Shown piece after piece: positions 16,544-64,000 of a stretch of 64,000 nucleotides of DNA. The notes under the pieces were generated by a model that was not told the DNA's origin, did not search any database, and saw nothing but the letters and a program-made list of their open reading frames with translations. Position 1 is the stretch's first letter. Every line of letters starts with the position of its first letter. Position numbers and translations under genes: made by a program. This DNA is from Malania oleifera (Eukaryota > Streptophyta > Magnoliopsida > Santalales > Ximeniaceae). Location: positions 92,363,191-92,427,190 of the forward strand of contig NC_080423.1 of the NCBI RefSeq assembly GCF_029873635.1, given 5' to 3'.

Positions 16544-16556
16544 AATCATCAATATA

Positions 16557-18330: not shown

Positions 18331-18350
18331 TTAATTGAAATGCAGGACTG

Positions 18351-35021: not shown

Positions 35022-35068
<47 letters not shown>

Positions 35069-36688: not shown

Positions 36689-36722
<34 letters not shown>

Positions 36723-38623
36723 GCCTCGACAAAGCCTCTGCTCGATGCTCGAAGCTCGAATCCTCTGCTCTCTCTCGACGAAGCTTCTGCTCGAAGCTCG
36801 AAGCCTCTGCTCTCTCTGTCTCTGTCCGACGGATCTGACCATATTATTTTTACAATCAACCAGAGTTGACTAAATGAATATTAAAAATTATTCTCATTTT
36901 CTCATGAAAGTTTCCCAAACAGACCCTTAACAGGCTGGAGAAATTTGTAATTTGGTTTTTTTCTCCTGTTTGAAAACTTATGGCTTATTTTTAATACTTA
37001 AGAATTATATTTTTGTTTTTTTCTCCATTATTCTAATATTTTTCTCCCTTTTATACTATATATAATTTTTATTTATTTATTACATTTTTTTTTAAAAAAA
37101 ACAATCCCTAAATGCTTACGCCTTGAGGCTTATGCCTCGCCTCGCGGAGGGTAAAATGCCTCGCCTTCCGCCTTCGCCTTTTAAAACACTGGTTTTTTCA
37201 TTTTTGTGAAACATCCACACTATCCCTAATCGAAATTTCAGTGACATCCAATTGGGGAAAGAGGGAAGTAGGGGAAAATTGTTGTCATTGCTGTTACCAG
37301 TTTGCCACTGTTCCCTGATAGGAGTTATTACCATCTTTTCCAGCGGCCTTGACCAAATCACATTTGGCCCTTGCTGTCGTCTTCATCCTATAATTAGAAC
37401 CTGACTTGTCTTCTCCATGGCTAACCACCAGTCGAAACTAGCATCATGGCTTCCCATTCTAGCTGTGCACACAAGCTCCATAGGCAACCATCAGATCCAA
37501 CCAATTTGCCACTGTTGTCTCCAAGGCCAGTGACCAGATTGCTAGCCATTGTTATTTCCTCCATGCCTACTGACCAGACATTAGTGTAGCTCCAACCATA
37601 AGCAGCATCTTTATTGCTGACACCAGACTGAGAAGTCCTGCAAATGTTAACCACTCTGACTACCATGAGCAATATGCTAAACAGAAATTGCAAAAAGACT
37701 ATACTTGTTCATCGGGCATAAAGTCTTTTGTCGTCACACTAATGAAAGCCCTGCAAGTTTAGTTGTAGGACTAATACTTGTTCATTGGACATTAAGTCTT
37801 TGTCATCACACTAATGAAAGCCCTGCAAGTTTAGTTGTAGGACCATACTTGTTCATTGGGCATAAAGTCTTTGTCATCACACTAATGAAAGCCCTGCAAT
37901 TTTAGCATTAGAAATTTTGTTGTTGCATTGTACAGTGCAATTTAAGCCGCCATGAGTTGTGTTTGGGACTGGATGTCAATCAAGCATTTCTGTGCACACC
38001 CATACATATATACTGTAGGATCAAAAATAGAGGGTGAGGAGCACAGCTACCTTGGGAAGGAATTTGGTGCTTGAGGATGTTTGATTCTTGGTTTGTTCCA
38101 ACTTCCTAGCCTTAGTCATATTTCATTGTTCACATGTGAAGAGTTCCTCATCATTTAATATAAAGGTCATTTTTTGTATGATAAAAGGCCTCCAGCAAGT
38201 TGTCAATGATAATTTTCAGTAATTTTTATTTTGCATTTGTTAATAATAAATCTTATCCCTTTCTAATTTATTGATGAGGAAATTTATAAAAATTGTTGCT
38301 TATTGGTATAGTTGCTACAAAAGGATGCAAGCAAGCGGCTGGGAAGTGGGCCTGCAGGGGGCGAGGAGATCAAGCGCCACAAGTGGTTCAAGCCTATAAA
38401 CTGGAGGAAACTAGAGGCGCGGGAAATTGAACCAAGTTTTCGTCCAGAAGTTGCTGGAAAACACTGCATTGCCAACTTTGAGAAGCACTGGACTGACATG
38501 CCACTGTTGGACTCTCCAGCCTCCAGCCCCGACGTCAAAGGGAACATATTTAAGGACTTCACTTACGTGAAGCCTGCAGCCCCCTTTCTCCAGAGGTGCA
38601 GCCCCCTCTCCGCAGAGAAATAG
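33816..38623 (+). CDS. S6K: Ribosomal protein S6 kinase, AGC family
   Basis: Six coding exons: 33816-34490, 34731-34813, 34898-35018, 35138-35311, 35857-35964 and 38312-38623. All are GT-AG and phase-consistent, giving 490 residues (Arabidopsis S6K1/S6K2 are about 465-471). The kinase phosphorylates ribosomal protein S6 downstream of TOR and PDK1 in cytosol and nucleus. Seen: the N-terminal [10 protein letters not shown] motif (38-47), Gly loop GKGAFGKV (164-171), Lys 186, Glu 205, HRDLKPEN (278-285, catalytic Asp 280), DFG (298-300), the activation-loop Ser 313 in SNSMCGT, SPE in place of APE (322-324), and the AGC C-terminal tail. The hydrophobic motif FKDFTYV has Thr 471, the site matching the TOR target. 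The last intron (2347 bp) carries a hAT-like element and a minisatellite where a segmental duplication begins. The gene looks intact. Confidence 0.96.
35030..35059. repeat. (CT)n microsatellite in an S6K intron
   Basis: A CT run of about 15 units shortly after the donor of exon 3. Confidence 0.9.
36291..37191. mobile_element. Non-autonomous hAT-like DNA transposon in the last S6K intron
   Basis: 901 bp with terminal inverted repeats CAGTGTTTTGAAAGGCG and CGCCTTTTAAAACACTG (two mismatches), and an 8-bp target duplication GTTTTTTT / GTTTTTTC, as for hAT elements. Subterminal parts are rich in GGCG/CGCC words. No transposase is present. The middle is a minisatellite with a CGAAGCCTCTGCTCT core, and the ORFs across it on both strands are repeat translations. 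Confidence 0.85.
36505..36830. repeat. CGAAGCCTCTGCTCT minisatellite and CT run inside the hAT-like element
   Basis: Repeated units of about 30-36 bp built from CGAAGC, CTCTGCTCTCTCT and GGACGAAGC, with a pure CT run near 36690-36718. Confidence 0.85.
37698..37911. repeat. ~72-bp minisatellite, unit 1 (about 3 copies)
   Basis: Units contain TTGTTCATTGGGCATAAAG, CACACTAATGAAAGCCCTGC and AAGTTTAGTTGTAGG. It lies in the last S6K intron. Confidence 0.92.
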
Positions 38624-40427
38624 CTCTGTCCTACTAGAATGGTTTGCCCTCTGGAAGCAACCTCATCTCTCTCCCTCTCTCTGGAGGATGTGTGTTCTTT
38701 CAAATGGTTGGGGTTAACTTTGATAGATGCTCTCTAAATATAGCAGTTTCTTTTAATGTACTTTCAGTCTGAACAAACAACATCAAATTCAGGATTTTTT
38801 TTTTTGGCTAATTGGATGATGTAATAAGCTGTGTCCACTTTTTTCATCAGTGCATTGACCCTTTGGATGGAGTTTTTCTCACAAAAAAAATGTTAATCCC
38901 ATCTTTAGAGAGCATTTGGATTTGAATTTTTATTGAATTTGAATAAATGTCTTATGTCATGTTCCTAATGGAAAGATAAGTGATGCCATTAACTCTTATT
39001 TCTCATTTGGGACGGTTTTTAAATAGTGAATGTGGTAATAATGACATTAGGGGTGTTTTTTATTTTTCTGTCTTTTTTCTTTTTGGTGAGACCCAAACAG
39101 TTAATGCGCCAATGGGGATGGTCCATGTCCATTGAGACATCCCCAATTTGTTGCTCATGTGAAACAAATTAGTTTTCTGACTTTGCTTTCATACCCTATT
39201 TATAAACAAGTCCAAAATACAAGAGAGCTACAAATATACTCCTCAAACACGTTAAAATTTAAAAGCAAACTTCAAAAATTAAAATGTCCACAATTCTAGT
39301 GAAAATTAATTATTAATTAATTACTTTTAACTTAGTTGAAGAAAATGTCTGGGAATTGATTGAAAAAAAGATTCATATGGTGGACCTCACATAATAGGAT
39401 TTAAAATTTGCTATTACTGTTATTGTATGCAAAATTACTAATTAATTAAATGTACGTTTGGTACATAAGAATGAAAAATGGAATAAATAATAATGAACTA
39501 GATTTTATTATATTCTCCATTTATAATTTCATTCCATTTCTTTTCTATCCATTCCATTCTGCAAATCGACCATCCTTGTATAAGCATGCAAAATGGGTCA
39601 ACGTAAATCTATTGAAACATGATTAGGGGAAGTGATCCACCCCAACTCAACTCCAGCAATACAGTCATCTATGAGTGGGAAATATGATCTTACCCCAACT
39701 CAAAGTTGGTTATGTATGGCAGTGTATTTGGGTGTAGGAGGATTTTGATTTTTATTTATTTTATTTCTATGCAATCAACCAAATATTTGAATTTTTATTT
39801 TTGGTTTGTTTGTGTTAAAAGTTTTATTCAAATTGACAACTATGAGTTGAAAATTACAAAAATATAAGGATTAAACTGATATGATTAGATAAACTAATAA
39901 TTTTTCAATACTGCATACCCTCTATATATACACATTTACGTAAATGCAAATATTCAAACATACGATTTGTAATATATATATAAGTGCGCACACATAAATT
40001 GGGCAAGTAAAAAGTACATGACTATTAGGGTGAACCAAGATAAGTGATTTACTCACTGTTAGCAAATGCTATGTAGAAAATGCTCGACTACTCGGTAAAA
40101 ATGCTTTTGAGTTTTCCTGAAAAACAGACGCTTGACTATTTGAGCATAGAAATAACTAAAATTATTGTGATTCTGATTTCTTGCCAAAAACTAATAAATT
40201 GTTTGGATCTTCAATGTATTGCTAGAAAATGATCTAATATGAATGATTGAAACGTCACACTTTTTCTTACCCAGTCCATCAAAATTGTTTCCAAAGATAA
40301 TGTATTCATATATTTTAACACTTCACTATAATTAATTTTTTGAATATAAAAATACATAGTAATAAAGTAAAAACTATGAATATTATGGATGCATAATAAC
40401 ACACCTTGAAATTATATACAAGAATTA
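38624..40427. other. S6K 3' UTR and downstream DNA
   Basis: The S6K stop codon ends at 38623 and the 3' UTR follows. From about 38990 the DNA has a close copy at 48550-50240. No further gene is seen. Confidence 0.5.
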
Positions 40428-40586
40428 TTAAACTCTTTCAGTGTACTCCATTAAGTTGCCACAAACAGAGGCCTTGTTCTTCATACCCTGCAGGCAAAAC
40501 TCCTTTCGCTTGAAGTCTTTGAACAGTAGCGAACCATTCACCATCGTAATCAAGAACTTCAAGGTTGCAGTCAGACTCATTTCCAT
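40428..40586 (-). CDS. Candidate 52-codon small protein, copy in unit 1
   Basis: The minus-strand ORF starts MEMSLTATLKFLITMVNGSL, is Lys/Phe-rich in the middle (FKDFKRKEF), and ends NLMEYTERV then TAA. A TATAAAT box lies 95 bp upstream (40681-40687, minus). The copy at 50242-50400 keeps the same start, frame, length and stop. Over the ~150-bp core the two differ at one base, which is silent in this frame, while their flanks differ at several percent. The plus-strand ORF over the same bases lacks an ATG start, and a third frame (LEVLDYDGEWF) is stopped in one copy. No family is recognised. It could instead be a conserved regulatory block or the result of gene conversion. Confidence 0.4.
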   Translation of the reverse strand: MEMSLTATLKFLITMVNGSLLFKDFKRKEFCLQGMKNKASVCGNLMEYTERV

Positions 40587-40680
40587 CTTCTTCACCTTAC
40601 TTCTTGCTTCTTACTTCTTACTTCTTACACACACACACACAACTGGTTTATGTTTCAACCAAAGGTGTGCTAGTACCTTA

Positions 40681-40687
40681 ATTTATA
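40681..40687 (-). promoter_or_regulatory. TATA-like box of the unit-1 small ORF
   Basis: The minus strand reads TATAAAT, about 95 bp before the ATG, which would give a leader of roughly 65 nt. Confidence 0.35.
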
Positions 40688-42607
40688 GGCTTGGTGTGCT
40701 TGAGAGGCTTTGAAATTTGAATGTTGGCATATTTATTGCTAATATTTGAAAAAATATATGCCTTTTATTACCTACATTCCATATATAAATAGCTATATTC
40801 CTCTTTCTCTCTAGTTGCAACTTGCACGTTTATCAATTTTATACCATCAAATTTCTTATTTTGAACCCATTTAATCACATGAACACTTTAACACGCCTAT
40901 GCTATTAATTAAAAATTTTTCATATTAGTGAAGATTTTACACAACACCTTCTAAATTTAATCAATACATTAAAAGTATGCACTATGTTGCTTCAATTTTT
41001 TTTTATGTTAACCAAATGTGCATGGCAAGAAAGAACCCAACTTAGGAGTCATCAAATTTTCTTGTTACACTAGTGAGTGTCTTGAGGGAATTTTTCAAAA
41101 AGAAATTTAATAATTTTTTGCTTCAAAATTTTTGAAAAAAAGTTTCTCTATTTTTCAAATTGCATTCTTTGAAAATCTTAAGATGCCAATGGGCACAATA
41201 AGAGGTCTTGAATTCAATTTTTCACAAATAGTAATTCTTGATTTATCACGAGGAAAGTCACGTCCTCTCTTGATTTGATCTCACCTAGTGTAATGTACTT
41301 TTTTCTTTTAGTCCATTGAGAGCCAACAAGGTCTGGACCATACAAGGTAAGTCATTTACTATCTCATCCTCTCAAGGTTCAAACCCGAGACCTCTAATAT
41401 GTAATTTCAAATTATGGCCATTGAAATGTATCCTTGGACTTGCAGGACAATATGCCTATTAATTTCTTAACTTAGAGAGGATTTTTGTTCTTGAATAATC
41501 ATTATTAGATAATATATTTGTGAAGAAACTTTCCATAATGATAATTAGTATATAAATATTTCAGTTGCATTAGATTTCCTTATATTTTGCGAATACATTT
41601 GCCAAGTAAATTCCTAAATAAGATTTTGTTGGAACTTTTGAAGTTATTAATTGGGATTTTTGAAAACTTTTTCAAATAACTTTCTAATTAATTAAGACAT
41701 AAAGGAAAACTTGTAGGGTTAAAGGGAGGAGTGTTATTTATTTTTATTTTTTGATTACATAGAAACTCCAGCCATCAACGAGCACTTCAGACCCCATGGT
41801 GTGGCAGAAAAACTTGAAAGGTTAAAGGGAGGAGTATTATTCCAAGCATTGTAGTGGAGTTCAAAATATAAAAGACTGCCTTGGGTGTCCAGCACATGTT
41901 TGTGAGATTAGGAAATGTGTCTTGATGAAAGGAGCGAACAAGAAGGGAAATGATTCATTTGAGATCATTTAAAATCACTTATAGAAACATACTATTAGTT
42001 AGGATTGAGTAGTGTACGGTGAAAACGGATTTCACAGATCAAATTAAAGAAGTTCAGTTAAATCAGTTCAGTTAATATTTTAATTTCGATTGGTTTGGTT
42101 TGATTTTTTAAAAAATTCTATGTTTTGTGATTGGTTCATTTGGTTTAAGAGAATTTTTTTTCGATTAATCAAATTTATCGATCAAATGTATAAACATTAA
42201 TATATAAAAATTATATATATATATATATATATATGTAAATAAATACATATTATAAATATTTACATACTTATATTGTATAAAAATATTATATATAAAATAA
42301 TATGTAAATTAGAAATGCATCATAATTTCAATTAACCAAGTCAACTGAACTAAAATTCAATTGGGTGAAGGTTGGGGTATACCCTAAACCGAAATTTTTC
42401 TATGAATTTGGTTAATTCACGGAATTCACTATAGTGACTGATTGTGCAACCTTACTATTAGCAAACATACCTATCTAAAAGTAGTTTGCGATTATTTATT
42501 ATAATTACTTTTTCAAATTATTGAGTTTTACAAAAAATACTTCTTCAGAAAATAACTAGTTCCCAAAATAAGTTGTTTGGAAAAATATTTTTTTTATGTC
42601 AGTACTT

Positions 42608-43988
42608 TTTTTTGGTAAAAGAGGGCGGTACCTCCATTTATTTATTAATAAACCTTCACTTTTGGTAGAGGAATACCGCGATTACAAGTTAACACCAACC
42701 AACCAAATTAGGACAAACAAAATTAAACATAACTAACAAAGGAGAAAAAAACATAAAAACAACAAAAAACAAAACGAAACTCTGGAAATAAACTAATGAC
42801 AAAAGGAAACAAGACCCCACCTATCCATCCGAAGGATACCTTTCAGATAACGTGGTAGAATGTGTTGTTTTTCGTAACTTACATTGTTTCCCCTTTCTCA
42901 TTCTTTAGCAAAAAAATCAGCAGCACTATTGCCTTCTCTATATTGATGCATCACCATGACATTCACTCCTTCTAACTCTGCTACAAGCTCCTCCCAAAAT
43001 TCCCAAAGATACCACAAAGTACATCTACATTTCCAAAGCCAATCAACTACAATTAGCGAGTCACTTTCAATAATCACATTAACATAATGCAAACATTTAT
43101 ATAAACGAATTTCTTCCCTGATTGCTTTTAATTCCACACTATTATTCGTACCATTGTCAAAATAACTTGAAAAAGCCACTTTTACCATGCCATGACAATC
43201 CCGAATAATTCCTCCACCTCCTGAAGTACCCAGATTGCCCCTACAACTCCCATTACAATTAAGTTTTATCCATCCTACTGGAGGTTTAACCCATGAATAA
43301 TTTTTCCAGGCCTATTGCAAACTCCCTGATGCTTAATTTGAAACTTATTCAAAATCTTAATGCCCGACTTCTTCAATTTTTGAAAAGAAATGGTGCTCTC
43401 AGCAATAAAACAAACACAGAATCGAACACTTCTCCATATCTGATCTGCACTTTGATAAACTCTTTCCATTCTCGTTTTACATCTTCGATTCCAGAGGCAC
43501 CACGTAATCAAACATGGAATCAGCTCGATTAAAAAACCTTTAATAGATGATTTTTTGCATAGTGGAATCAATTTGCCATTTTATTTTTCCAAGGAAGAGA
43601 TCGTTGGAAAGGAATCCCCAAAGCCACACTAGCCCGATGCCAAACCTCTAAAACCACCTCTCCTAAAGAAAAAATATGATCAATGTTTTCTTGACTTCTC
43701 TGAAAGTAGCAATCACAAGCCAAAGTCATCGATATTCTTGTGATCTGAATTCTATAATTTACAGCCAAGCATCTAAACCAGGCTCTCCATAAACACATTG
43801 AGATTCTTCTAGGTAATACAGAATGCTAAAACCAGTCATTCCACAAAAAATTATCACTCTGCTCCTCACTGCCTCCCAAGCCGTCTTTGTAGAAAAATTA
43901 TTGTTCGGGGCAGGCTTCCAGACAAAAATATCCTGCCCACTTTTACTCACTGGCACCTGTTGCAAAAAAACTTGGAAAGAGTAGTGCC
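42608..43988 (-). mobile_element. 5'-truncated L1-type LINE with RNase H domain
   Basis: Present in unit 1 only; unit 2 has a short unrelated stretch at the matching place (about 52236-52284). Minus-strand pieces encode, in order, a zf-RVT-like region (about 44046-43570), a linker (WCLWNRRCKTRMERVYQSAD, about 43500) and an RVT_3-type RNase H domain (43188-42898). The RNase H shows the acidic residues in YFDNG, ELKAI and ESDS and the REGNSAAD motif. The low-coordinate end has a short T run, that is, a short A tail on the minus strand. The coding pieces lie in different frames, so it is inactive. The high-coordinate boundary is approximate, and the open frame near it runs slightly into flanking DNA. 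Plant L1 elements with an RNase H domain are a known group. Confidence 0.75.
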
Positions 43989-44700
43989 CTAAAAAAGAGG
44001 ACTTGTGAAGACTTAGGTGGATGTATGATTTTAGAATAGCTTTCATATTTTCTCTTTAGAATCAAATACTATAAGAAATAAAAATTAATTCTATATGACT
44101 AAAAATTATGAAAACCAATTATTAATGACATAAAAATTAAAACTTTGTTTATTGATTTATTTAGTAAACTCATTTTATATTCTTCTTGCTTTACTTATAA
44201 CCAAACTTAACAAAGTATATTTTTTCATATTTTTTCTTTCTATTTTCTTGTTGTCTTCTAAATTCCAAATAAGCTACTCTTTTGGATTAAAAAAAAAACA
44301 ATTTAATCGAGACAAGCAAATTTACATAGTCTTACAATTATATTCTATGAAACAAAAGTTGCATTCCCAAACTATTTTTTAACTCTCTTGGTTGTGGTAC
44401 CCAAAAAATTTTTTATAAAAAAAGAAAGAAAAAGAAGTCATCTACTTTCTTATGGTCTAACTTCATGTTACAATTTCAAGTCTTAGATCTCATTTCATAA
44501 TTTTCATCATCTCCTTAGGGGTGTATTTGAGTTGTGATGAGTTAATATAGTGGGATATGTTTATTAGACATAACTAAAAAATGTTAAGCTCGAAATTCGA
44601 TTCGAACTCAATCAATCTCAAAATTGTTGAACTTGAACTCAATTTGATTGCAAGTTCTTCAAACTCGAGCTCAACTTGATTAGTCTTAATTGAATTGTAT

Positions 44701-45294
44701 TGTTAAGAATTCCACTTGTGAGTTTGTCTCACATTGGAAAATTAGAGTAGATGATGGGTACTTATATATATGATTGGGCCCAAGACCCAATAGGCTTAAA
44801 CTTTTAGGTCAAGTTAGTATTCACCCATGTATATCAAGCTCACCCATGAGCTCCTCCTATCCTAACAAGTGGTATCAGAGCAACGGTTCATAACTTTGGA
44901 TGAGCGACATCGTAAAAAGTCAAGATGTGAAGCTAATTCTCCTAACGTGCTAATAGTTGGAGGACCAAGTGTGTGATTGAGGCCAATAAGGATCATTTAG
45001 GCTATAGATGGATCTGAATAGGGTCAAGACCCACTTGAGCAATTGTTGGGAAATTGAGCTTGTTCCTATAAGGGAGACGGTTTCCGTTCATGGGGGAGTA
45101 GTTGGAACTCACAAGTGAGGGGGAGATTGTTGAGAATTCCACTTGTGAGTTTGTCCCACATTGAAAAATTAGAGTGGATGATGGGTACTTATATACATGG
45201 TTGGGCTCAAGACCCAATATACTTAAGCTTTTGGGTCAAGTTGGTGTTCACCCATGTATATCAAGCCCACCCATGAGTTCCTCTGGTCCTAACA
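44701..45294 (+). mobile_element. TRIM retrotransposon in unit 1
   Basis: 594 bp. LTRs 44701-44869 and 45128-45294 both run from TGTT(A/G)AGAATTCCACTT to CCTAACA. A Met-tRNA-type primer site (TGGTATCAGAGC, 44872-44883) follows the left LTR, and GTGAGGGGGAGA precedes the right one. TGTAT is duplicated exactly outside (44696-44700 and 45295-45299). By eye about a tenth of LTR positions differ. It has no coding capacity, typical of TRIMs. Confidence 0.92.
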
Positions 45295-46220
45295 TGTATT
45301 TAATATTAAATATATAAAAATTATATTTAAAAACTTTAAAAGAGTATATTTTTCTTTCTTTTACTGATTTTTTTTTCAAATTCCGAATAAGTTACCTTCT
45401 TGGATAATAAGAAATTACATGAGACAAGCAAATTACATATTCTTACAATTAAATTGCAAGAAAGAGAAACCATACTACCAATTTTAGCAAACCATTTCAC
45501 ATTTGTTTTTTTCAAAACTTTTTTGGCTCTCTTACCCAAAAATATAGAAGGAACAGAGTGATATACTTTTATCTATACATGAGGAGATTTTTCATTCATT
45601 GATAATTGTAACTATTTTAGTCTTGAGTCATATTTCTAATTAACTTCATATTTTCTTCATTAAAGACTCATTGTTTGATGTCTATGACTTAACTTCCCAA
45701 GTATGCAAGTTTCAAAGTCATGTTTTGACTTTGGGAACAACTGTCTAGATAGTTGTAGCGTTATTATGTTTGGAGAGCTTTGACATTATATCCATAAGGT
45801 TTAAGTTTACCTTAAATTCTTCCTATTACATAAATTTCTTTTCTTGAGTGGAAAGAATCGTGGAATTTTCACAATTGTTGAGAAAAGAGTAGTATTCTCT
45901 TGTTATATTTTCTCTATACTTTGATAATAAACTTATTAGATTGCTAATAGATGTAAGCCTAGTGCTGAAACATTCTCTGGCGTATCGGAGCATTCTCGAT
46001 CAATTTTGACCGTCCTAGGTAATCCGAGGTGGTCCAAGATGGTTAGGATGTGTCTAGTGATGTCTCGAGTTTCATGCACAAAAATCAAGACTTTGTCGGA
46101 GGTATTTTGACGAAAGGCCCAAAGCAGAGATAAGAAAGTCTTCCTACTTTTATTTATTTATTTATTTTTACCTTTCTATAACTTTGTGTTTTAGGCTTTT
46201 CAAGTTTTTTAAAGTTGGAA

Positions 46221-46480
46221 AAGTCTTTTGTCGTCACACTAATGAAAGCCCCGCAAGTTTATTTGTAGGACTATACTTGTTCATTGGACATGAAGTCTTT
46301 GTCATCACACTAATGAAAGCCCGCAAGTTTAGTTGCAAGACTATACTTGTTCATTGGGCATAAATTCTTTGTAATCACACTAATGAAAGCCCTGCAAGTT
46401 TAGTTGTAGGACTATACTTGTTCATTGGGCATAAAGTCTTTGTCATCACACTAATGAAAGCCCTGCAATTTTAGGGTTAG
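46221..46480. repeat. ~72-bp minisatellite, unit 2 (nearly 4 copies)
   Basis: Same repeat as 37698-37911, with one more copy. It starts exactly at the unit 1/unit 2 junction. Confidence 0.92.
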
Positions 46481-47509
46481 AAATTTTGTTGTTGCATTGT
46501 ACAATGTAATTTAAGCCGCCATGAGTTGTGTTTGGGACTGGATGTCAATCAAGCATTTCTGTGCACACCCATACAAATATACTGTAGGATAAAAAATAGA
46601 GGGTAAGGAGCACAACTACCTTGGGAAGGAATTTGGTGCTTGAGGGTGTTTGATTCTTGGTTTGTTCCAATTTCCTAGCCTTAGTCATATTTCATTGTTC
46701 ATATGTGAAGAGTTCATCGTCATTTAATATAAAGGTCATTTTTCATATAATAAAAGGAGTCCGGCAAGTTGTCAATGATAATTTCAGTAATTTTTTTTTT
46801 TTTTTGCATTTGTTAATAATAAATCTTATCCCTTTCTAATTTATTGACGAGTGTTGCGGGATAAAAATGGCAATGACCTGCAAGACTGCTCCCCGACTTC
46901 TGATGACCTGAAAAGGGTGAAAGAAAAACAGGTTTGGAGGACCCGGGGTGTACTCCGGGGGATCACTCCGGTGCCTAAGTAAGAGGAATGCTTCAAAGAG
47001 ATTGAATGCAACAATAAATGTGAGTTAAGAATGAGATACCTTCGCTTGTTTGCGTCCCCCTCTTTATAGTGGTGAGGGTTAACCCTTGAGGTGATTCTTC
47101 ATTATGACGTGAGGGCGTGGATCGCTCCTAGGTCATAAAGCACTAGCATGTATCACTCCAAGAGTTTAAGGCGCTAGCGTGGATCTCTCCCCTCTTTATC
47201 GAGTTGAAGCTGATTGCTTTCGCCAGAAGGTTTGACTTAGGGAGTGATGGTTAAGTGTTGACTTCCTGATATGGGCATATCAGTCGTCCCCCCCCCCCCA
47301 CTTTAGCTCTGCCGAGCTGATTCGTGTGCCGAGCTTGCCTTCTGCCAAGCTGATGCCTGGGGGTTCGACTAGTCTGAGTCGGTTGGGCTCTTATTCGGCT
47401 TTGCCAAACTGGTTCGCATGCCGAGCTATTTTTTTGCCAGGCTGATGATGCATGGGTTTGGTTGGTCTGCGCCGATGCTTACTGAGTGGATGTCCTAAGG
47501 GTTTGGGCT

Positions 47510-48190
47510 GAGGCGTTCTTGTCGAGTTGTTTCTGCCGAGCTGCTCTTTGTGGCATTTCCTGCTGAACTGCTCTTCATGGCATTTCTTGCCCAACTGTTT
47601 CTGTTGAACTGCTATTCGCCGCATGTCTTGCAGGGCTGTTTGTGTCGAGCTGCTCCCTATAGCATTTCTTGCCGAGCTGTTTATGCCGAACTACCCTTTG
47701 TGGTATTTTTTACTGAGCTATTTTTGTCGAGTTATTTTCGTGGCATTTCTTGACAAGCTGTTTCTGCCGAGCTGCTTTTTGTGGAATTTCTTCCCGAATT
47801 ATTTCTGTTGAACTGCCCTTCGTGGAATTTTTTGTCGAGCTGTTTCTGCCAAGCTGCTCTTCGTGACATTTCTTGCCGAGCTATTTCTATCGAGTTGCTT
47901 TTCGTAGCATTTCTTGTTGAGCTGTTTCTGCCAAACTGCTTTTTGTGGCATTTTTTGCTGAGCTATTTCTGCTAAGTTGCATTTCATGGGATTTGTTGTC
48001 GAGCTGTTTCTGCCGAGCTTCTTTTTGTGACATTTTTTTTCCAAGCTATTTTGCTGAGTTGCCCTTCATGGCATTTGTTGTCGAGCTGTTTCTGCCGAGC
48101 TGCTCTTGTGACATTTTTTGTTGAGCTGTGTTTGCCGAGCTGCTATTAGTGGCATTTCTTGTTAAGTTGTGTTCGCTAAGCTGTTCTTTG
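47510..48190. repeat. ~41-bp minisatellite (GCCGAGCTG units)
   Basis: Around 16 degenerate units with TTTCTGCCGAGCTGCT and GTGGCATTTCTTGCCGAGC. Period about 40-42 bp. Long ORFs on both strands here are repeat translations. Confidence 0.9.
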
Positions 48191-48199
48191 TGGCATTTT

Positions 48200-48505
48200 G
48201 TTGATGTACTTTGTGGCCTCACAAGCTATCCTTATCAGTCGAGTCTTCCCTGCCTACCTGAGTGGTGTTCATTTGTATTTACATTCTTCTGGCCTCACAA
48301 GCGTTGCTTTATCAGTTGGACACAATTTGCCTAATGAGTTGCGCTCATTTATTGGGCTTTTGTGTGACCTCACGAGCTGTGCTCATTAGTTGGACATTGT
48401 TTTGCCTAATGAGATGTGCTCACTAAGCTGTTGTGTGGCCTCACGAGTTGTGCTCATCAATTGGGTCTTATTTGCCTAACGAGTTGTGCTCATTATTGGG
48501 CCTTG
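48200..48505. repeat. ~70-bp degenerate repeat (CCTCACGAGCTGTGCTCAT units)
   Basis: About four units with GGCCTCACAAG or GACCTCACGAG, GTGCTCATTAGTTGG and TTTGCCTAATGAG. Confidence 0.8.
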
Positions 48506-48545
48506 TTTGTGTAAATTTATTCAAATTTAAATTCAAGGTTAAAAA

Positions 48546-49458
48546 TTCATGTTGTTGCCATTAACTCTTATTTCTCATTTGGGACAGCTTTTAAATAGTA
48601 AATGTGGTAATAATGACATCGGGGTGCTTTTTATTTATCTTTTTATCTTTTTTCTTTTTGATGAGAAGGCTCTCACCCGATTAGTTAATGCACCAATGGG
48701 GATGGTCCATGTTCATGGAGACATCCCCAATTTGTTGCTCATGTGTACAAATTAGTTTTTTGACTTGGCTTTCATACCCTATTTGTAAACAAGTCCAAAA
48801 TACAAGAGAGTTACAAATAAACTTCACAAAGACACATTAAAATTTAAAAGCAAACTTTAAAAATTAAAATATCTGTAATTCTAGTGAAAATTAAACTACA
48901 CACGTATAATTATTAATTAATTGCTTTTAACTTAGTTGAAGAAAATGTCTCGAATCACGGGAATTGATTGAAAAAAAGATTCATATAGTGGACCTCACAT
49001 AATAGGATTTAAGATTTGTTATTGTTGTTATTGTATGCATAATTACTAATTAATTAAATGTATGTTTGGTACATAAGAATGAAATGGAATAGATAATAAT
49101 ATAATTAAATTTCATACTAAATTTTATCATATTCTCCATTTATAATTTCATTCCATTTCTTTTCTATGATTATGGGAAGTGATCCACCCCAACTCGACTC
49201 CACCTATACAGTTATCAATGAGTGGGAAATATGATCTCACCCCAACTCAAAGTTGGTTATGTGTATTTGGGTGTGGGAGGACTTTGATTTTTATTTATTT
49301 TATTTCTATGCAATCAACCAAATATTTGAATTTTTATTTTTGGTTTGTTTGTGTTAAAAGTTTTATTCAAATTGAAAACTATGAGTTGAAAATTACCAAA
49401 ATATATGGATTTAACTGATATGATTAGATAAACTAATAATTTTTCAATACTGCATACC

Positions 49459-49512
<54 letters not shown>

Positions 49513-50600: not shown

Positions 50601-50636
<36 letters not shown>

Positions 50637-52776: not shown

Positions 52777-53001
52777 TGTAAAACCCGGAAATTTAAAAGG
52801 ATTAAAATAATTTAGAAAAAAAATAATAAATAAAATAACAAATAAATAAATAAAAGAAATGACGTGGGAAAAAGAAAAAAAAATTAAATTAAAAAAAATA
52901 AAAATTAAAGAAATTAAATTAAATTAAGATAAATTAAATAATTAAATAACTAGTTGTTAGATTAAATATTATTGCATTGGATTTAAAAAAATAATAATTA
53001 A

Positions 53002-53064
<63 letters not shown>

Positions 53065-55590
53065 AAAGAGGATAAGAAGAAGAAAAAGAGGTTTGTAGAA
53101 CAGGCACGCCCCCCCCTCTCTCTGAAATTTTATTTGCGCAGTGCCAGCCACTCCGTCTTCGTCTCTCTCATTCTTTCAATTTCTTGGTGAATTTGCAGCG
53201 GATCGGGAAATGTAAGGTCCCGTTGGATTTCTGGTTCTATTGCCGACATTTCTACTAGAGCAGATTAGTCATGGGAATGACTTAGGCACTGCTCCCGGAG
53301 AAAGGTAAATTTTCTCCATTTTCTCAATTTTGTTTTAAATCTACTGTTAAATCGGCAAACGGGTACCACCATGTGATCCTAGTCGTCGTCGTCGTCATTT
53401 TGATGTAAGTAATTTTTCAATTGGAATTTTCTAAACCCTACTCCAAAGCGAGAGTGGGATTTGAGAAATTTGACAAATTAGTTAAATTTGCGAGTATAAT
53501 TGTAAATTGAAAATTATGACCCTAAAAAATATTTAAATAGTATGTTATTTAAGAATAATTTAAATAGAATTAGAGTTTCTGATTCAAGACTCGGGTAAGC
53601 GCCGCAGGTGTAATTTTGGACCCCGCAGGCATAATTTAGAAAATTAAGTGGGACTGTTAAATATTAGTTTAAATATTAATTTGAGGTGTGTGGAGTCTAA
53701 GGAAGGCTAGATGGGTAGTATTTTGGGGAAATGAATTAATTAATTTAGGAAATTTGGTAATTTAGCTATATTTAAGGGTATATTTATTTATTTATTTAGA
53801 ATTTATGGAAAAATATTAAAATAATATTTTATTCAGGATTAATTACATGGAACTAGAATTTTTGATTCAGGATCCGGGTGAGCGCCGCAGGTATTTTTCC
53901 GGAGTCCCTGTCGGTGTAGTTCGAGAATTCAGGTAAGGGAAAAATTTATATTTTAAATCAGGTTTTTCATGAATTAAAAATGATTATGTGTTATTTATGT
54001 GTATATGTTTTTATATGGGTTTAAAATGCCAGCCATGAAATTTATGTTTTCTGAGCCTAGGATTGTCGATATAGTTATGTATGTGTGAAAGTAAACGAAC
54101 GAAAGTGAAAAGAATTTTCTAAGGAATTATGTAAGAAATGAAGTGTATTTTGAGCATGTAAATGTTACATGTGGGTTAACTTATTTTATGAGAAATATGT
54201 ATGAATTTTATTGCTAAATTGTTTGGCATGAGAATCTATACAAATTATATGTTAAATGTATGTGATGCAAGCTAAATAAGTAATGCAATGAGAATAAAAT
54301 ATGATATGGACAATGTTGCCAGTGTATGTAAATGCAATCATGTAAAGGTACGACAGCTGAAAGCCGGGTTAGCAGATCTAGCTCATTTTTATGTGAACTA
54401 ACTGATGACAGTTAAAATGAGCTGTGTTAGATTCTAGCGCATTTCTATGTGGACTAACAAATGACGGCTAAAGAGCGGCTGTAGTACAAAGGAATGAAAT
54501 GAAAATGTTATAAAAGGAAATGACCAGGAATGACAATGCAATGAAATGAAATGTGAAATGTAAATGATACAAATGAGAAAGAGTCACTTAAAGTGAAACA
54601 CAAGGAAATGTTAAGTTATGAACATGAAAGAATGTGAATGATTGAATAATGATGGAAATAATGATGTATTATGATATTAGAAATATTTATGTATGTAGAA
54701 CATGTTACGTTTGGGCGGGGCGCACTCTTCGCCTGAGGGCTTGCTGAGTAAGGCGAATGCACTAGTAGTTTCAGATGTGGCACTAGCTATATAACGCACT
54801 AGTGCAGAGGGAACCTACTTGTATGAGCGAGTAAAATTCCCTATCCTTAGGGCGTTTGCCGGTAAACTATTGTTAAACTGTGTGAATACGAGATTAATCT
54901 ACCACTTGAGGGCTTACTGAGTAAGGTGAGTGCTCTAATATGTTTTAATTGTAACCTTAGGGTTACCTAGGTATCAGAGTAGAGGGGTGCTAGTTGTATG
55001 AGCGGGTAATCACCCCTATCCTCGGGTAATCTCGTGAGTTAAACATTTGCATGTGATTGTTTAGGTTCAGAAAACGATTTCAATGTTATATGATGATTTG
55101 CAAATGAAATAAAAATGATATCTATTTATCTCATGTTGGCCACATGCTGTTTTAATATGTATGTTTATTCCCTTATTGAGATGTGTCTCACCCGAATATG
55201 ATTATTTCTTTTCAGGACATCCTCGAGGTCGGGCTTAAAGAGCTCAAGGGTTGTTAGCCTTCTGAGGATTGTATAAAGAGAAAGGGTATATTTTTATATA
55301 CTTTAGGGGAATGTAAATATTTATGTTTTAAGTTTTTATGTTTTAAGCCTGTTGAGAACAGAATGGTTGTGAAAATACTAAAATGCTTTTGGAGATGTAT
55401 GTATATATGGAAATGCAGGTGTTGGATGGATACTTTGGATTATAGATAGAAATTAGTAAACTCTAGTATTATATTATATTATGGAGATTTTGTTTATATT
55501 TTCCGCTGTATATGATATGGATTACGGATTATCAAGGATTTTAGCAGGTATAACGCGTCGGACCTGGGTTTAAGGGTTCGGGTCGTTACA
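52777..55590 (+). mobile_element. Solo-LTR-like element in unit 2
   Basis: 2814 bp from TGTAAAACCCGG to GGGTCGTTACA, flanked by CTTCA on both sides (52772-52776 and 55591-55595). Unit 1 has the unoccupied site (near 44470). Inside are a TA run, TCTCTC, GGTAAGCGCCGCAGGTGTAA, duplicated GAGGGCTTACTGAGTAAGG blocks (54735 and 54907) and GAGATGTGTCTCACCCGA. No coding region is seen. Confidence 0.9.
53008..53060. repeat. (TA)n microsatellite
   Basis: A pure TA run inside the AT-rich head of the solo-LTR-like element. Confidence 0.95.
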
Positions 55591-56442
55591 CTTCATGTTA
55601 CTATTTCAAGTCTTAGATCTCATTTCATAATTTTCATCATCTCCTTAGGGGTGTATTTGAGTTGTGATGAGTTAATATAGTGGGATATGTTTATTAGACT
55701 TAACTAAAAAATGTTAAGCTCGAAATTCGATTCGAGCTCAATCAATCTCAAAATTGTTGAAATTGAACTCAATTTGATTGCAAGTTCTTCAAACTCGAGC
55801 ACAACTTGATTTGTTTTAATTGAATTGTATTGTTAAGAATTCCACTTGTGAGCTTGTCCCACATTGAAAAATTAGAGTGGATGATGGGTACTTGTATACA
55901 TGGTTGGACCCAAGACCCAATAGGCTTAAGTTTTTGGGTCAAGTTGGTGTTCACCCACATATATCAAGCTCACCCATGAGCTCCTCCGGTCCCAACAAGT
56001 GGTATTAAAGCCGACGATTCATAACTCTGGATGAGCGACATCGTAAAAAGTCAAGATGTAAAACTAATTCTCCTAACGTGTTAACAGTTGGAGAACCAAG
56101 TGTGTGACTGAAGCCAATAAGGATCATCTAGACTGCGGATGGATCCGAGTAGGGTCAAGACCCACTTGAGCAACTGTTGAGGAATTGGGCTTGTTCCCAT
56201 AAGGGAGACGGTTTCCGTTCAATGGGGAGTAATTGGAACCAACAAGTGAGGGGGAGATTGTTGACAATTCCACTTGTGAGCTTGTCTCACATTGAAAAAT
56301 TAGAGTGGATGATGTGTAATGACCTAAAAAAAAAATTATTATTATTAATTAATTAATTATTATTAAGAAAATTAATTAAATTAGGAAATTTGAGGATTTT
56401 GGATATGTATATATGTATACTTAATTACATATAAGGATAAAT

Positions 56443-56487
<45 letters not shown>

Positions 56488-58204
56488 GTGTATGTATATA
56501 AAAGTATATATAAAGTTATTAAATAATAAAGTAAAGTAAGAGACAAAGGAAAGAAAGAAAGAAGAAAAAAAAGAAATTAAAATGCTAAGCTTCTTGAAGA
56601 AAACAGGAAGTGGAAAGAGAAAAAAAAAACTATTCACGCGGCAGAACAAAGGAAGGAAAAGGAAAAAAAAAAAAAAAACTCTCTCAACTCACGCTCTCTA
56701 CTCCTCATCTCTCTACAATTTCGCGTAGGATTCTCGCCCAATTGAAAATCCGAAATTACCACTAGACTCCATTCTTGGCCACCAACATATCTACCGAAGT
56801 GGATTTGTCACAGGAGCAACATGGGCATATCTCCTGAGATAAAGCAAATTCTCATTCTTATCTTAATTTTTCTTAAATTTTAAGCCAAATGGGTGATCGG
56901 ACACTACCACGAGAATCTAGGGATGATTCTCTACAAATCTAGCGGAGCGGATTTCTCGTAGGATTGATGTGGGAATAGCCCCAAAACTAGGATAAATGAC
57001 TTATTTAGAAATTAATTATTATTTAATTATTGTAAATTAGGAAATGTTAAAATAATATTTTATTGAGGCTGATTTGATTGAATCAGGGTTCCGGTGAGCG
57101 CTGCAGGTATAATTTTGGGAGCCCTACAGGCGTGATTCAGGGAAATAGGTAAGGGGGAATAAAATTATATCAGTTTTTTATTAAGATGAACTTGTTATTT
57201 ACAAGCATATGAAATTTATTATTTATCTATATGATTTTTAGAACCGTCTGAGTACTAGAAAATGAATGATATTGTTCAATGTGACGCCCCGAACCCGCCA
57301 AGTGGGCCCCGGGTGCCACGTGTTCCAATTACCTGTATCTGATACCATAATTAACATGTACACAGCGAAATATAAATAAATATCCTCAAGTAAATACCAG
57401 AGTTCTATATAGAAACCCAAAAACAAATACTACAACATCCAGATATCTATATCCACAACTAGTATTTAAAACATAATCCCATACAAATATATCTATACAT
57501 ATATCAGTATCTCACATTACCCCAAAAAGAAACTAGCAAAAACAGTCCCAACCTAGGCCTTCAAACCCGATCTCCAGAAGAACCTGAAAAGTTGTTAATC
57601 CACTAGGGTGAGACATTTCTCAGTAAGGGTGAAATAAATTATAATAGTGTGTGACAAATGAGTTTTAATATTTACATATCAAAATAAACTGTTTCTCACA
57701 TAATATCAATAACAACTGAGAAAATGTACTATTAATAACATCTCCGACATCTAATATCATACACACATCCAATATGCACAAGTACATAATTTTTATGCAA
57801 GTGAAAGTCCTCGAGGATAGAGAAGATTACCCGCCCAAACAAGTAGCTTCCCTCTGCTCTGGTACTAAAAATACAACCTACCAGAGCACTCACCTTACTC
57901 AGTAAGCCCTTAGGTGAAGTATTACTTTGCCGCCAGTACACACATCTTTATTATTTTAAATACGAAAGTTTCCGAGGATCGGGATGTCTACCCGCTCATA
58001 TAAGTAGTATCCCTTTGCACTGATACCAAGAAACTACCTAGCAGAGTACTTGCCTTTCTCAGCAAGCCCCTGATGGTATGTTTACCTCGCCGCATGCACA
58101 CACATGCATTCATAATATGTTATACCATTATTTTTATGCTATAATTAAATTCACATGCGCACAACACATCCACACAGGAATCATGCATCTCATACTTCAT
58201 CTTT

Positions 58205-58480
58205 TAATATCATCAGTACGTGGCCCACACAGAGCAACTACGTACATGTCAGTACGTGGCCCACACAGACACCTATGTACTTCTTATCTACACGTGGCCC
58301 ACACAGATACCACTACCCACACAGGGTACATAACATGGCTCACATAGGTGCCACCATCCACACATGATACATAACATGGCCCACACAGACGCCATTATCC
58401 ACATAGGATATATAACATGGCCCACACAGGCACAATTATCCACACAGAATATAACGTGGTCCACACAAGCACCACTATTC
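58205..58480. repeat. ~40-bp minisatellite in the composite element
   Basis: About seven units with GGCCCACACAGACACCA and TATCCACACAGGATA. ORFs on both strands here are repeat translations. Confidence 0.9.
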
Positions 58481-59698
58481 ACCAGTATCCAATCTCCATG
58501 ACCTACCCGTCGTATATCAGTAGAACAAGCTCCTCGACCTGCCAATGTCCTACCCCATATAAATGACAGTATGACGAGCTCCTCAACCTGCCAATGTCAT
58601 ATCATGATTTATATCTAGGCAATATAACAACCTCTTCATGCCAACATTATATTGAGATGCATACGAATAACCACACCAGTTAGTTCACAAAGACGCATCA
58701 ATGCATTACCACACAAGTATCTAACATATCCACATTCCCACACAGTACTCCAACAGATCAATACATTTCCACACATGAGTCAAACATAGCAAATTTTTAT
58801 CATGTCATAATCATTACAAATATCCCCACATGCAAACCCAAATACCACAGTAATTCATATTTAATTTATTAGGAAAAATTGTTCCCTTGTCACACGAATT
58901 TAATATCATATGCAATTATCCCAAATATAAACTTTAAACAAAATCATCATTTTATAATACTCAGACGGTTCTAAAAATCATATAGATAAATAATAAAATT
59001 TATACGCTCATAAATAACAAGTTCACCTTAATAAAAAACTGATATAATTTTATTCCCCCTTACCTGTTTCCTTGAATCACGCCTGTCGAGCTTTCAAAAT
59101 TATACCCGCAGCGCTCACCTGAACCCTGATTTAATCAAATTAATCCCAATAAAATATTATTTTAACCTTTCCTAATTTACAATAATTAAATAACAATTAA
59201 TTTCTAAATAACCCATTTATCTTAGTTTTGGGGCTATTCCCACAACAATCCCATGAGAAATCCGCTCTGCTAGATTTGTAGATAATCATCCCTAGATTCT
59301 CGTGGTGGTGTCCGATTGCCCATTTGGCTTAAAATTTAAGAAAAATTGAGGTAAGAATGAGAATTTGCCTCACCCCCAGGAGATATGCCCACATTGCTCC
59401 TATAACAAATTTACTTCGGTAGATATGTCGGTGGCGGAGAATGAAGTCTAGTGGTATTTTTAGATTTTCAATTAGGCGAGAATCCGCCGCGAAATCGTAA
59501 AGAGAGGAGTGGAGAGCGTGAGTCAAGAGAGTTTTTTTTTTTTTCCTTTTCCTTCCTTTGTTCTACTGCGTGAATAGTTTTTTTTTTTTTCTCTTTCTCC
59601 TTCCTGTTTTCTCCAGGAAGCTTAGCATTTAAGTTTTTTTTTTTCTTTTCCTTTATCTCATACTTAACTTTATTATATAATAACTTTATATATACTTT

Positions 59699-59702
<4 letters not shown>

Positions 59703-59758
<56 letters not shown>
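59703..59758. repeat. (CA)n(TA)n microsatellite
   Basis: A CA run passing into TA. The mirrored arm near 56445-56480 has a shorter TA-only version. Confidence 0.92.
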
Positions 59759-60862
59759 CCCAAAATCCTCAAATTTCCTAATTTTATTAATAATAATTAA
59801 TTAATTAATAATAATAATTTTTAAAATTAGTTAATTATTATTATTATTTTTGGGTCGTTACATGATGGGTACTTATATATAAGGTTGGGCCCAAAACCCA
59901 ATAGGCTTAAGCTTTTGGATCAAGTTGGTATTCACCCATGTATATCAAGCCCATCCATGAGTTTCTCCGGTCCTAACATGTATTTAATATTAAATATATA
60001 AAAAGTATATTTAAAAACTTTAAAAGAGTATATTTTTCTTTCTTTTACTAATTGTTTTTTTTTTTCAAGTTCCGAATAAGTTACCTTCTTGGATAAAAAG
60101 AAATTACACGAGATAAGCAAATTTACATACAATTAAATTGCATGAAAGAGAAACCGTACTACCAATTTTAGCAAACCATTTTACATTTGTTTTTTTCAAA
60201 ACTTTTTTGGCACTCTTATCCAAAAATATAGAAGGAACAGAGTGATCTACTTTTATCTATACATGAGGAGATATTTCATTAATTGATAATTGTAACTATT
60301 TTAGTCTTGAGTCATATTTCATAATTTTTGATTCTCACATTAGGCTAAGTATAGTTGAGTTATATGGAAGGATACTCAAACTCAACCCAAATTTCAAATG
60401 TTGAACTCAAAAATCAACTCGTATTCGATCGATATCAAAATTGCTAAACTTGAATTTGATTCAATTGCAAGTTCTTCAAACTCGAACTCGAATTAATTTA
60501 GCTTAATTTACCTAAACTTAAATACATGTATAAAATATATAGAACATTATGTTGACAACAGATTTTGTCCAAGAGTCAATTCACCAAGAACATAGGGCAC
60601 ATCCTAAGCTCCCTCCCTTCCTTAATTTATCTCTGGCATGTCAGAGCATTCTCAATCAATTTTGACCGTCCAAGGTAATCCGAAGTGGTCCAAGATGGTT
60701 AGGATGTGTCTAGTGATGTCTCGAGTTTCATGCACAAAAATCGAGACTTTGTCGGTGGCATTTTGACGAAAGGCCCAAAGCAAGATAAGAAAGTCTTCCT
60801 ACTTTATTTTTACCTTTTTATAACTTTGTGTTTTAGCCTTTTCAACTTTTTTAAAGTTGGGA

Positions 60863-61121
60863 AAGTCTTTTGTCGTCACACTAATGAAAGCCCCGCAAGT
60901 TTATTTGTAGGACAATATTTGTTCATTGGACATTAAGTCTTTGTCATCACACTAATGAAAGCCTTGCAAGTTTAGTTGTAGGATTATACTTGTTCATTGG
61001 GCATAAAGTCTTTGTAATCACACTAATGAAAGCCCTGCAAGTTTAGTTGTAGGACTATACTTGTTCATTGGGCATAAAGTCTTTGTCATCACACTAATGA
61101 AAGCCCTGCAATTTTAGCGTT
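60863..61121. repeat. ~72-bp minisatellite, unit 3 (nearly 4 copies)
   Basis: Same repeat, starting at the unit 2/unit 3 junction. Confidence 0.92.
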
Positions 61122-61971
61122 AGAAATTTTGTTGTTGCATTGTACGGTGCAATTTAAGCCACCATGAGTTGTGTTGATTAAGGTGTAATCCCAAGAAGGG
61201 GGGGGGGGGTGGTCAATTGGATATTAAACAAAACAATCCACTTAATTTCCTTTTACACACTTCTTATAAATTTACCAACTACTTCTTGTTGCTCAATTAT
61301 GTATGTGTGTGGCAATCCTATCTATGCATGCAATATACTCAATTTAAATACAATGCGGAAAATAAAGAGTAGAGGGAAGAGAGAAGACAAATGCGATTTT
61401 ACAAGGTTCAACCAACTTAGCCTACGTCCTCGCCTTGAGCAACCACTCAAGGATTCACTAAAAACCCTACTCCTTAAAGTGGGACGGAGCTTCCCTTACA
61501 AACTGCTGCTTACAAGAGGTACAACTCCCTCCTTGTTCGTTGCTCACAAGAGGTACAACTTCCTCCTCACACCCGGTTCACAACCCGAACCGTATTTTCA
61601 ATGAAATCTGAAAATAACACTCAAAACAATGCTTCTAACAAAAGCTTGTGAGTACAATTCAATTTCCTAACACATTAACATATGATATAACTTGAAGGTC
61701 AAGAATGTATGAAAACCAATACAATCGTTTGATGTAAGATATGTGTCAACACACAAATTCGTATTTAATCAAAACTTCCAAGTAAAATATATTTGAAATG
61801 CCTTGGAGTTAACTAGGGTTCTTGGTTTGCTTTATAAGAATGCACAAGTATATTTGAAGTGAACTAGTTAACAAAATCTTTGTCTTGAATACAAACTCAA
61901 TCAAAATCACAAAGCTTCTTTCAAGTTCCAATATTTTAATCAAAGTAGGTTTTTCAATAAGAAGCCCTATG

Positions 61972-61975
<4 letters not shown>

Positions 61976-62031
<56 letters not shown>
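61976..62031. repeat. (TA)n(TG)n microsatellite
   Basis: A compound dinucleotide repeat inside the solo-LTR-like element. Confidence 0.95.
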
Positions 62032-62035
<4 letters not shown>

Positions 62036-62489
62036 ATATACGTATTGAATCACAAATCAATTAACCAAGCTAACAAGTTTTTCTCAAGACACGATCTTTC
62101 AAAAATCAGTTTTTATATGTGAATACACACTCAAGATCAAAACCTCTTTCTAATGATAAACACGTAAAGAGATGAGAGGTTCTTGAAAAGTAATAACTTG
62201 AAAAATCAAACCTTAATACTGAACTAAAGTTTAGTTGGATGAATGAATGCCCTTTTGATTTCAGTAGAGATTTGCCCAAGGAAGATGGAAGAAGATTGAA
62301 GTGCAGAAAATTAGCTCTAGGGTTCAAGTCTTACAATGAGATGTATATTTTTCTTGTTATGTGTCCTAGCTTGTATTCTAGGGTTTAGATATCATAATAT
62401 ATAGCATATTACCCTTAGAATTAATCTCAGCCGTTGAATCAATAAGATATTTCGTGTGTCTTTTTAATAAAGAACTGATTTTTAGGCTT

Positions 62490-62695
62490 TCCCGCGAGTT
62501 CAGGCAACCAAACTCGTCTTCAGGCTCCTGAAGTGTAAACTTCAGGCGCTTGAGGTTCCAAGGTTAGGCGACCAAAGTGCCTCGGCCAAGTTCTGCCTTC
62601 TCCATTTAATTCTTCAGGCGACTGAACTTAATCTTCAGGCAACCGAAGAAATTCTTCAGGCTACTGAGGTTTGAGTTCAGGCGACCGAAGTTCCC
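62490..62695. repeat. Degenerate TTCAGGCGACCGAA repeats
   Basis: About eight imperfect copies of TTCAGGCGACCGAA or TTCAGGCAACCGAAG, irregularly spaced. Confidence 0.8.
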
Positions 62696-63161
62696 ATTTT
62701 CTCAAATTTTCATATCTAACTAAAAGTCTTCTTGGCTCCTTTTCTTGGGTCTTTCATAAAACATATTTTTCATGATTTTGAAAACATTTCAAGGTCCTTG
62801 AGAGTTTCCTAATGATATACATGAAATGCATGAATCCTAAAACCATTCTAAGTTATAATGAGCCTCAAATTAAATCATATGAAAATGTAAGTACATGAGT
62901 TCTAAATACCCTTTCCCAAGATATTCTTGAACTTTGCTGCTTGCATCTTGATTCCCGTACTCTTTGAGTTCCATGGATCTTGCCAAGATTTGTTGACTTT
63001 CCGTGCATGCTTAGTGTAAGTCCTGTTCACAAACTCAATGCACAGATCAAATATAAAGTGATTTGTCATTATCGAAACAAGATTGGACTCGTAGAGTCAA
63101 CAAGTTGTGTTTGGGACTGTATGTCAATCAAGCATTTCTATGCACACCTATACATATATAC

Positions 63162-63184
63162 TGTAACGACCTCAAATTCTATCC

Positions 63185-63235
<51 letters not shown>

Positions 63236-63683
63236 ATACCTAAGCAGTGAAAACATAAAACATACAACCAATCACATATTTACTATACAATACCAGAATC
63301 CAGTATATACAGACCATATCCATACAAAAATACCCCTCCAGTATCATCTACTCAAAAATATACAACTCTGACAAAAACTTACCTTATAACTAGGGTGATC
63401 TAACCACTTTCTATCCGCGAGCCTGATCTGCTCGCCTAGCTGGTTCACCTGAAAAATGGTAAAGTAATGGGGTGAGTCGACGCTTAGTAAGTGGAAATAT
63501 GCTATTATTAGTGTGTGACAGCTAAGTTAAGAATCCTTAAAAATAGCAACTAAACTGTAATGCAATAAATAATCTTGCAAAACATATCTTTCTTTCTCAA
63601 TTTAAAATATAATGTATCGTCTGTATTTTCTACTCTTCATACTGATAATATCATACTATACTCATCATATACTATAAAACTGT

Positions 63684-63714
<31 letters not shown>

Positions 63715-64000
63715 ACTATACTTATTCCCTAAGACTTTGTACGTCATGATTTGACCCCTCATGACAGGGTTGTGCGGCCCGTAGGCGGGACTCTATCTGG
63801 TCGGCCCTCCAGATAAGTTAATATACTCTACACTACCTCAGCTTGACCAAACTGCATCCTCTCCTAGGCGCGGGACTGACTGCTACCTCGTCTAACTGGC
63901 CCTCTCTACCTAGCGTACTGGGGAGCTACATCCTCTCCGAGCACAGTTAGATGGTACCCACACACTATCTGAGATATGTGGTTGCACTCTATCTGTATAT
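63162..64000 (-). mobile_element. Solo-LTR-family element at the window edge, minus strand
   Basis: It starts TGTAACGACCTC directly after TATAC, where unit 1 continues without it (near 38015). The interior is the reverse complement of the family: GGGTTGTGCGGCCCGTAGGC (63765), a GGTCGGCC-type block and GGGGTGAGTCGACGCTTAGT. The right end is outside the window. Confidence 0.75.
63186..63230. repeat. (TA)n microsatellite
   Basis: A pure TA run near the start of the last element. ORFs across it are spurious. Confidence 0.95.

Follow-up and report, generated by a model that had tools for sequence, protein, structure and literature searches.

Tandem arrays that begin with an illegitimate join and grow by unequal crossing over belong to textbook genetics, and the yeast CUP1 arrays are a close parallel to the locus described here. 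For CUP1 (PMC4232551), the first duplication is reported to have arisen by unequal non-homologous recombination, and unequal crossing over is described as one route to a changed copy number. The present locus is in Malania oleifera, in a window (the whole stretch of DNA analysed, 64,000 nucleotides, C7:92363191-92427190 of the 1.49-Gb genome) where a tandem array begins within the last intron of an S6K-like AGC kinase gene. The next 50 kb were joined to the window and the resulting 114 kb compared with the first repeat unit; extended coordinates continue the window numbering (C7 position minus 92363190). The array has five head-to-tail units (U1 to U5) in this assembly and extends from 37721 to ~98811 in extended coordinates. 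Its mechanism is ordinary and the class of event well known; its markers are unusually good and readable.

The likeness to CUP1 lies in a non-homologous first duplication with unequal crossing over as the route to changes in copy number, but CUP1 units carry the CUP1 gene and their arrays vary among strains, whereas the units here are mostly 4 to 8% apart, contain many mobile elements, and past U1 include no complete gene that could be recognised. Plant tandem duplications are described for the Arabidopsis copy-number region of MSH2, AT3G18530, and AT3G18535 (PMC5101643), although that region recombined between flanks that are 99% identical and the first join here was between unlike sequences. 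The head-to-tail pair AtS6K1/AtS6K2 (PMC7988200) is a tandem duplication at an S6K locus, but comprises two genes, whereas only the gene end is duplicated here and the extra exon copies have been lost. Human copy-number variant breakpoints at tandem repeats (PMC4090240) resemble this locus in that the break falls within a tandem repeat, although that study concerns a statistical enrichment over 140 breakpoints rather than the history of one array.

Self-comparison of the window yields a collinear chain between 37697-46532 (U1) and 46220-61175, whose long blocks have raw identities of 82 to 93%, and a third unit that starts at 60862-61175 and is taken up again at 63103-63165. When U1 is compared with the joined 114 kb, all five units appear as adjacent, direct, collinear copies that differ in the insertions and deletions they carry; for example, U1 39744-42021 has no counterpart in U4. 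Repetition of the order from minisatellite to tail by chance is excluded. The initial annotation described a tandem triplication, and the tandem arrangement is borne out, but its count is too low: two extra units are present beyond the window, where the minisatellite begins anew at 77007 and at 84118 (extended coordinates). The unit order that it proposed is recovered, in that minisatellite, small open reading frame (ORF), and TRIM-like element recur along the collinear chain in U1 and U2 and the order restarts in U3. Its other structural claims agree with the sequence as well, including about 3, 4, and 4 minisatellite copies, a breakpoint within an intronic minisatellite, and identical internal junctions, with point differences aside.

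The minisatellite has a 71-bp repeat, present in 3, 4, and 4 copies in U1, U2, and U3, and the left breakpoint lies within it, 24 bp in from its left edge. A genome search with the minisatellite gives at least eight matches, those listed all lying inside 47 kb of C7 and marking five arrays. With up to one mismatch allowed, the window has the 15-mer AAGTCTTTTGTCGTC at 37721, 46221, and 60863 only (0.01 occurrences expected), and both junctions in the window consist of AAAGTTGG, AA or GA, and then AAGTCTTTTGTCGTC. All four internal junctions of the array have one structure, TTTTTT-AAARTTGGR-AAAGTCTTTTGTCGTC, with point differences only. Moreover, TTTATTTG is carried in minisatellite copy 1 by all four of U2 to U5 and is absent from U1 and from the other copies. 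At the right edge of U5 there is no sixth minisatellite; the sequence after TTTTTT differs from the internal junctions, and a 136-bp tandem repeat begins ~140 bp farther on. Nine junction bases are found in neither the left edge of U1 nor the right edge of U5; if the U5 edge is the ancestral right edge, they would come from neither side and be filler, as in end joining.

A second set of markers concerns the last exon of the kinase gene. Homology of U2 to U5 with U1 stops at 38277 or 38278, where all four carry a repeat-element fragment with the same left border. U2, U3, and U5 rejoin U1 homology at 38981 with a common right border, and U4 rejoins at 39039 without that border. Because the replacement fragment and its left border are shared, loss of the exon is best read as a single event in the forebear of U2 to U5. 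Protein, genome, and unit comparisons found no extra S6K exon in units beyond U1: a protein search of 46221-64000 with the last exon gave only a chance-level match (E of 8.8), and among the matches listed in a genome search the exon appears once at this locus, with a single further match on C13 (60% identity). The duplication thus takes in the end of the S6K gene and not the gene as a whole. The same filler at all four junctions, point differences aside, together with the exon replacement common to U2 to U5, argues for one join that was later copied.

The TRIM-like element and the tails distinguish the units further. The element is present in U1, U2, and U4, and the site is empty in U3 and U5; TGTAT is single at the empty sites and flanks both sides of the filled ones, as a target duplication. 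The tail contains one of two pieces: piece a (332 bp) is common to U1 and U3, with 8 of 331 sites different, and piece b (~300 bp) is common to U2, U4, and U5. All four combinations of these markers occur, namely TRIM with a (U1), TRIM with b (U2 and U4), empty with a (U3), and empty with b (U5), which points to recombination between units, as exchange would be needed to produce them unless one event recurred at the same place. Tails are not confined to the array; the genome has at least 33 matches, of which 28 of those listed lie outside the array and 5 within it. The unit 1 copy of the TRIM-like element has no ATG-initiated ORF of 45 or more amino acids in the ORF list, and no family search was made with it.

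The explanation that we favor, with somewhat better than even confidence, is that the five-unit array arose by one illegitimate join and two unequal crossovers. The segment, whose right end lies within or beside a dispersed repeat, would have been end-joined there to the intronic minisatellite with ~9 filler bases, giving a two-unit array, U1-Y. The second copy, Y, would then have lost the S6K last exon in favor of the repeat-element fragment, and the TRIM-like element would have entered the first copy. An unequal crossover between U1 and Y would give U1-X-Y, in which X has the left side of Y and the right side of U1, after which the tail piece of U1 would have switched from b to a. Finally, a crossover shifted by two units would take the array from three units to five, with the arrangement U1-X-(Y left, U1 right)-X-Y, and this last crossover would fall between 44700 and 45642 of U1. 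What we infer from the markers is that the first join was by end joining, and also how many exchanges took place, of which kind, and in what order.

Substitutions and small gaps back this crossover history weakly, and in places not at all. U1 and U2 differ at 380 of 5,713 sites (6.7%; eight aligned blocks, with the TRIM block included and large insertions excluded), and units are mostly 4 to 8% apart outside mobile elements. Among the sites of block 43991-44700 that distinguish U1 from U5, U2 agrees with U1 at 31 of 46 and U4 agrees with U1 at 28 of 45, and a grouping of U3 with U5 is found at 5 of 12 informative sites, the most of any grouping. U3 and U5 are also the closest pair in block 38981-39590 (33 of 650 sites differ; four units present), where five gaps, each 3 columns or longer, set U1 apart from U2, U3, and U5, as would follow if the left sides were the first to diverge; U4, which lacks part of the block, was left out of the gap count. 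One clear gap of this kind is present in block 40398-41738, and a 13-column gap in the tail is common to U2 and U4. Block M3 (42377-42590) is given no weight here: U2 is 14 to 16% from the other units in it, and the alignment looks unreliable.

Several observations weigh against the favored history. Between-unit substitution distances are nearly star-like, and no grouping of units stands out in 38008-38277. The history pairs U3 with U5, but in block 43991-44700 U3 matches U1 at 24 of 46 sites and U5 at 22 of 46, is closer to U4 (38 of 717 sites differ) than to U5 (48 of 710), and is filled, like U4, where U1, U2, and U5 have a common 6-column gap. In the exon-replacing element, 60 of 99 two-by-two sites pair U2 with U4, but 41 of those 60 are within its internal tandem repeats, and outside them the figure is 19 of 39 (p of 0.03). 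The minisatellite has three copies in U4 and four in U2. A scan of U1-U2 divergence found no step, as 1,140 of 2,000 block shuffles reach the observed best change point, and a step model was dropped on this account. The terminal repeats of the TRIM-like element differ by a Kimura two-parameter (K2P) distance of 0.12, exceeding the divergence of the units, and 16 of the 19 differences are transitions; copies of the element are 9 to 10% apart between units and the neighboring block 4% apart in the same units, about a twofold difference. Insertion after the first duplication would fit the K2P distance only with faster mutation of the element, and it is to faster mutation of silenced elements that we would attribute this distance. 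Last, a stretch of the right flank weakly matches the tail (69% over 71 columns); the flank thus has some relation to the array, and the tail and flank may be parts of one old repeat. The earlier proposal of one illegitimate join with later unequal crossing over is largely borne out: the four like junctions fit one join, and the mosaic of markers is what exchange between units predicts, but substitution distances show no clear step at a crossover.

These same data bear on an alternative in which a single join was followed by stepwise addition of single units, and the mosaic arose by gene conversion between units. Mosaic markers by themselves cannot separate conversion from crossover, and no single pattern of substitutions and small gaps holds over the length of the unit, which speaks for conversion; however, this route needs more events, whereas a single two-unit shift yields, for the large markers, a U2 that is like U4 and a U3 that is like U5 on its left and U1 on its right. 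We regard conversion as possible but rather unlikely. The plentiful mobile elements of the array bring to mind tandem duplication by alternative transposition, which is described for maize Ac/Ds (PMC3744419), but no element end was seen around the junctions, the left edge of U1, or the right edge of U5, although no systematic search was made, and an origin of this kind is judged highly improbable.

Both ends of the segment lie in or beside repeats, and separate duplications could in principle have reused the same fragile repeats and breakpoints each time; the same filler in all four junctions, point differences aside, and the exon replacement common to U2 to U5 speak against such independence, to which we assign even less credence than to transposition. 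Recurrence of the filler also speaks against misjoining of haplotypes or repeats in the assembly from which the junctions are read. Neither the window nor the added 50 kb contains an N, the array lies within a 112-Mb contig, and units that are mostly 4 to 8% apart outside elements carry different insertions, making an artefact the least credible of these explanations.

The kinase gene itself is assigned from several lines of evidence. Pkinase matches are present in three of its exons, and a phmmer search with the first exon returned AGC kinases, including S6K beta-1, among the best 60 of 394 matches, with STK38 as the top match. The exons can be traced from 33774, with the motifs in order and FTYV last among them. 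No Pfam family matches the last exon at an E value of 0.001; this exon codes for FTYV, part of the hydrophobic motif of plant S6K, and the name S6K-like draws partly on such motifs. Because unit 1 retains its own S6K last exon, no effect on the kinase is expected.

A small ORF of 52 amino acids, on the opposite strand to the kinase gene, is a further component of the segment. Between U1 and U2 there is one synonymous difference in codons 1 to 48, while codons 49 to 51 all differ and two of them change the residue; in the three surrounding blocks, without 40428-40730, 228 of 3,057 U1-U2 sites differ. Windows of 144 columns with no more than one U1-U2 difference occur only at 40441-40669, and the low divergence at the ORF is suggestive; it is not significant over the whole alignment, as such a window appears in 734 of 5,000 site shuffles and 1,029 of 5,000 block shuffles. 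A TATAAAT lies 101 bases upstream of the ATG in U1. The U3 version is 49 amino acids long with three residues changed, the region is missing from U4, and the U5 version has lost its ATG and has an in-frame stop. The peptide has no match in Pfam or among solved structures at E values up to 1, and a literature text search with three stretches of it found none. We consider it possible, though less likely than not, that this is a real small-protein gene amplified with the segment; U1 and U2 would then hold intact copies and U3 a shortened one, U4 would have lost the gene by deletion, and the U5 copy would be broken. The pattern may reflect a gene that is decaying in some copies, or chance.

Table 1. 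Features of the array and the adjoining kinase gene, in window positions unless marked as extended coordinates.
Feature	Position	Strand	Remarks
S6K-like AGC kinase gene	33774..38623	+	last intron has minisatellite; last exon 38312-38620 plus stop
Minisatellite, unit 1	37697..37905	+	partial copy and 3 copies; left breakpoint 37720/37721
Unit 1	37721..46219	+	8.5 kb; alone among units in keeping S6K last exon
52-amino-acid ORF, unit 1	40428..40586	-	from ORF list
LINE-like fragment, unit 1	42597..43990	-	RNase H / RVT_3 ORF 42898-43311; approximate borders; no clear target duplication
TRIM-like element, unit 1	44699..45297	+	~172-bp terminal direct repeats
Tail, unit 1	45974..46219	+	dispersed repeat
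Junction 1	46205..46235	+	tail ends TTTTTT; then 9 bases taken as filler and the first minisatellite copy
Unit 2	46220..60861	+	14.6 kb
Repeat-element fragment	46854..48552	+	start like a long terminal repeat (LTR), TGTTG; ~41-bp internal tandem repeats; replaces U1 38278-38980 (S6K last exon and 3' end)
52-amino-acid ORF, unit 2	50242..50400	-	from ORF list
Insertion, unit 2, solo-LTR-like	52777..55590	+	TG...CA ends; 5-base target duplication CTTCA; bounds by eye
TRIM-like element, unit 2	55829..59981	+	broken by insertion 56315-59862
Insertion, unit 2	56315..59862	.	~0.95-kb inverted arms; 5-base target duplication TGATG
Junction 2	60847..60877	+	like junction 1 save point differences
Unit 3	60862..77005 (extended)	+	in window only 60862..64000
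Insertion, unit 3, solo-LTR-like	61172..63102	.	TGTTGA...TCAACA ends; 5-base target duplication AGTTG; bounds by eye
Unit 4	77006-84116 (extended)		beyond window
Unit 5	84117 to ~98811 (extended)		beyond window

Three private insertions with target duplications, two in U2 and one in U3, are listed in Table 1; for the two that are solo-LTR-like, the longest flank match found by script is 9 bases. The arms of the other U2 insertion are 83% alike with TGTAAYGACC ends, and its right part is like a minus-strand LTR of ~2.6 kb. Unit 3 is broken again from 63162 by a stretch that starts with TGTAACGACC and runs past the window end, and U1 homology is back at 65464 (extended coordinates). Elsewhere in the window, a TFIIS-like gene (central domain and zinc ribbon) is located at 11226-12194, upstream of the kinase gene, a tRNA-Ile (AAT) gene at 16469-16544, and an inverted repeat at 17225-18786, with arms of ~440 bp that are 87% alike.

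Insertions and replacements label each unit of this array, and a stepwise history can be proposed that leads from an illegitimate join to five units. The partial duplication of a conserved kinase gene should be harmless, and the duplicated exon was probably lost before the expansion. If the small ORF is indeed a gene, the array would be a small natural birth-and-decay series of a microprotein gene beside S6K.

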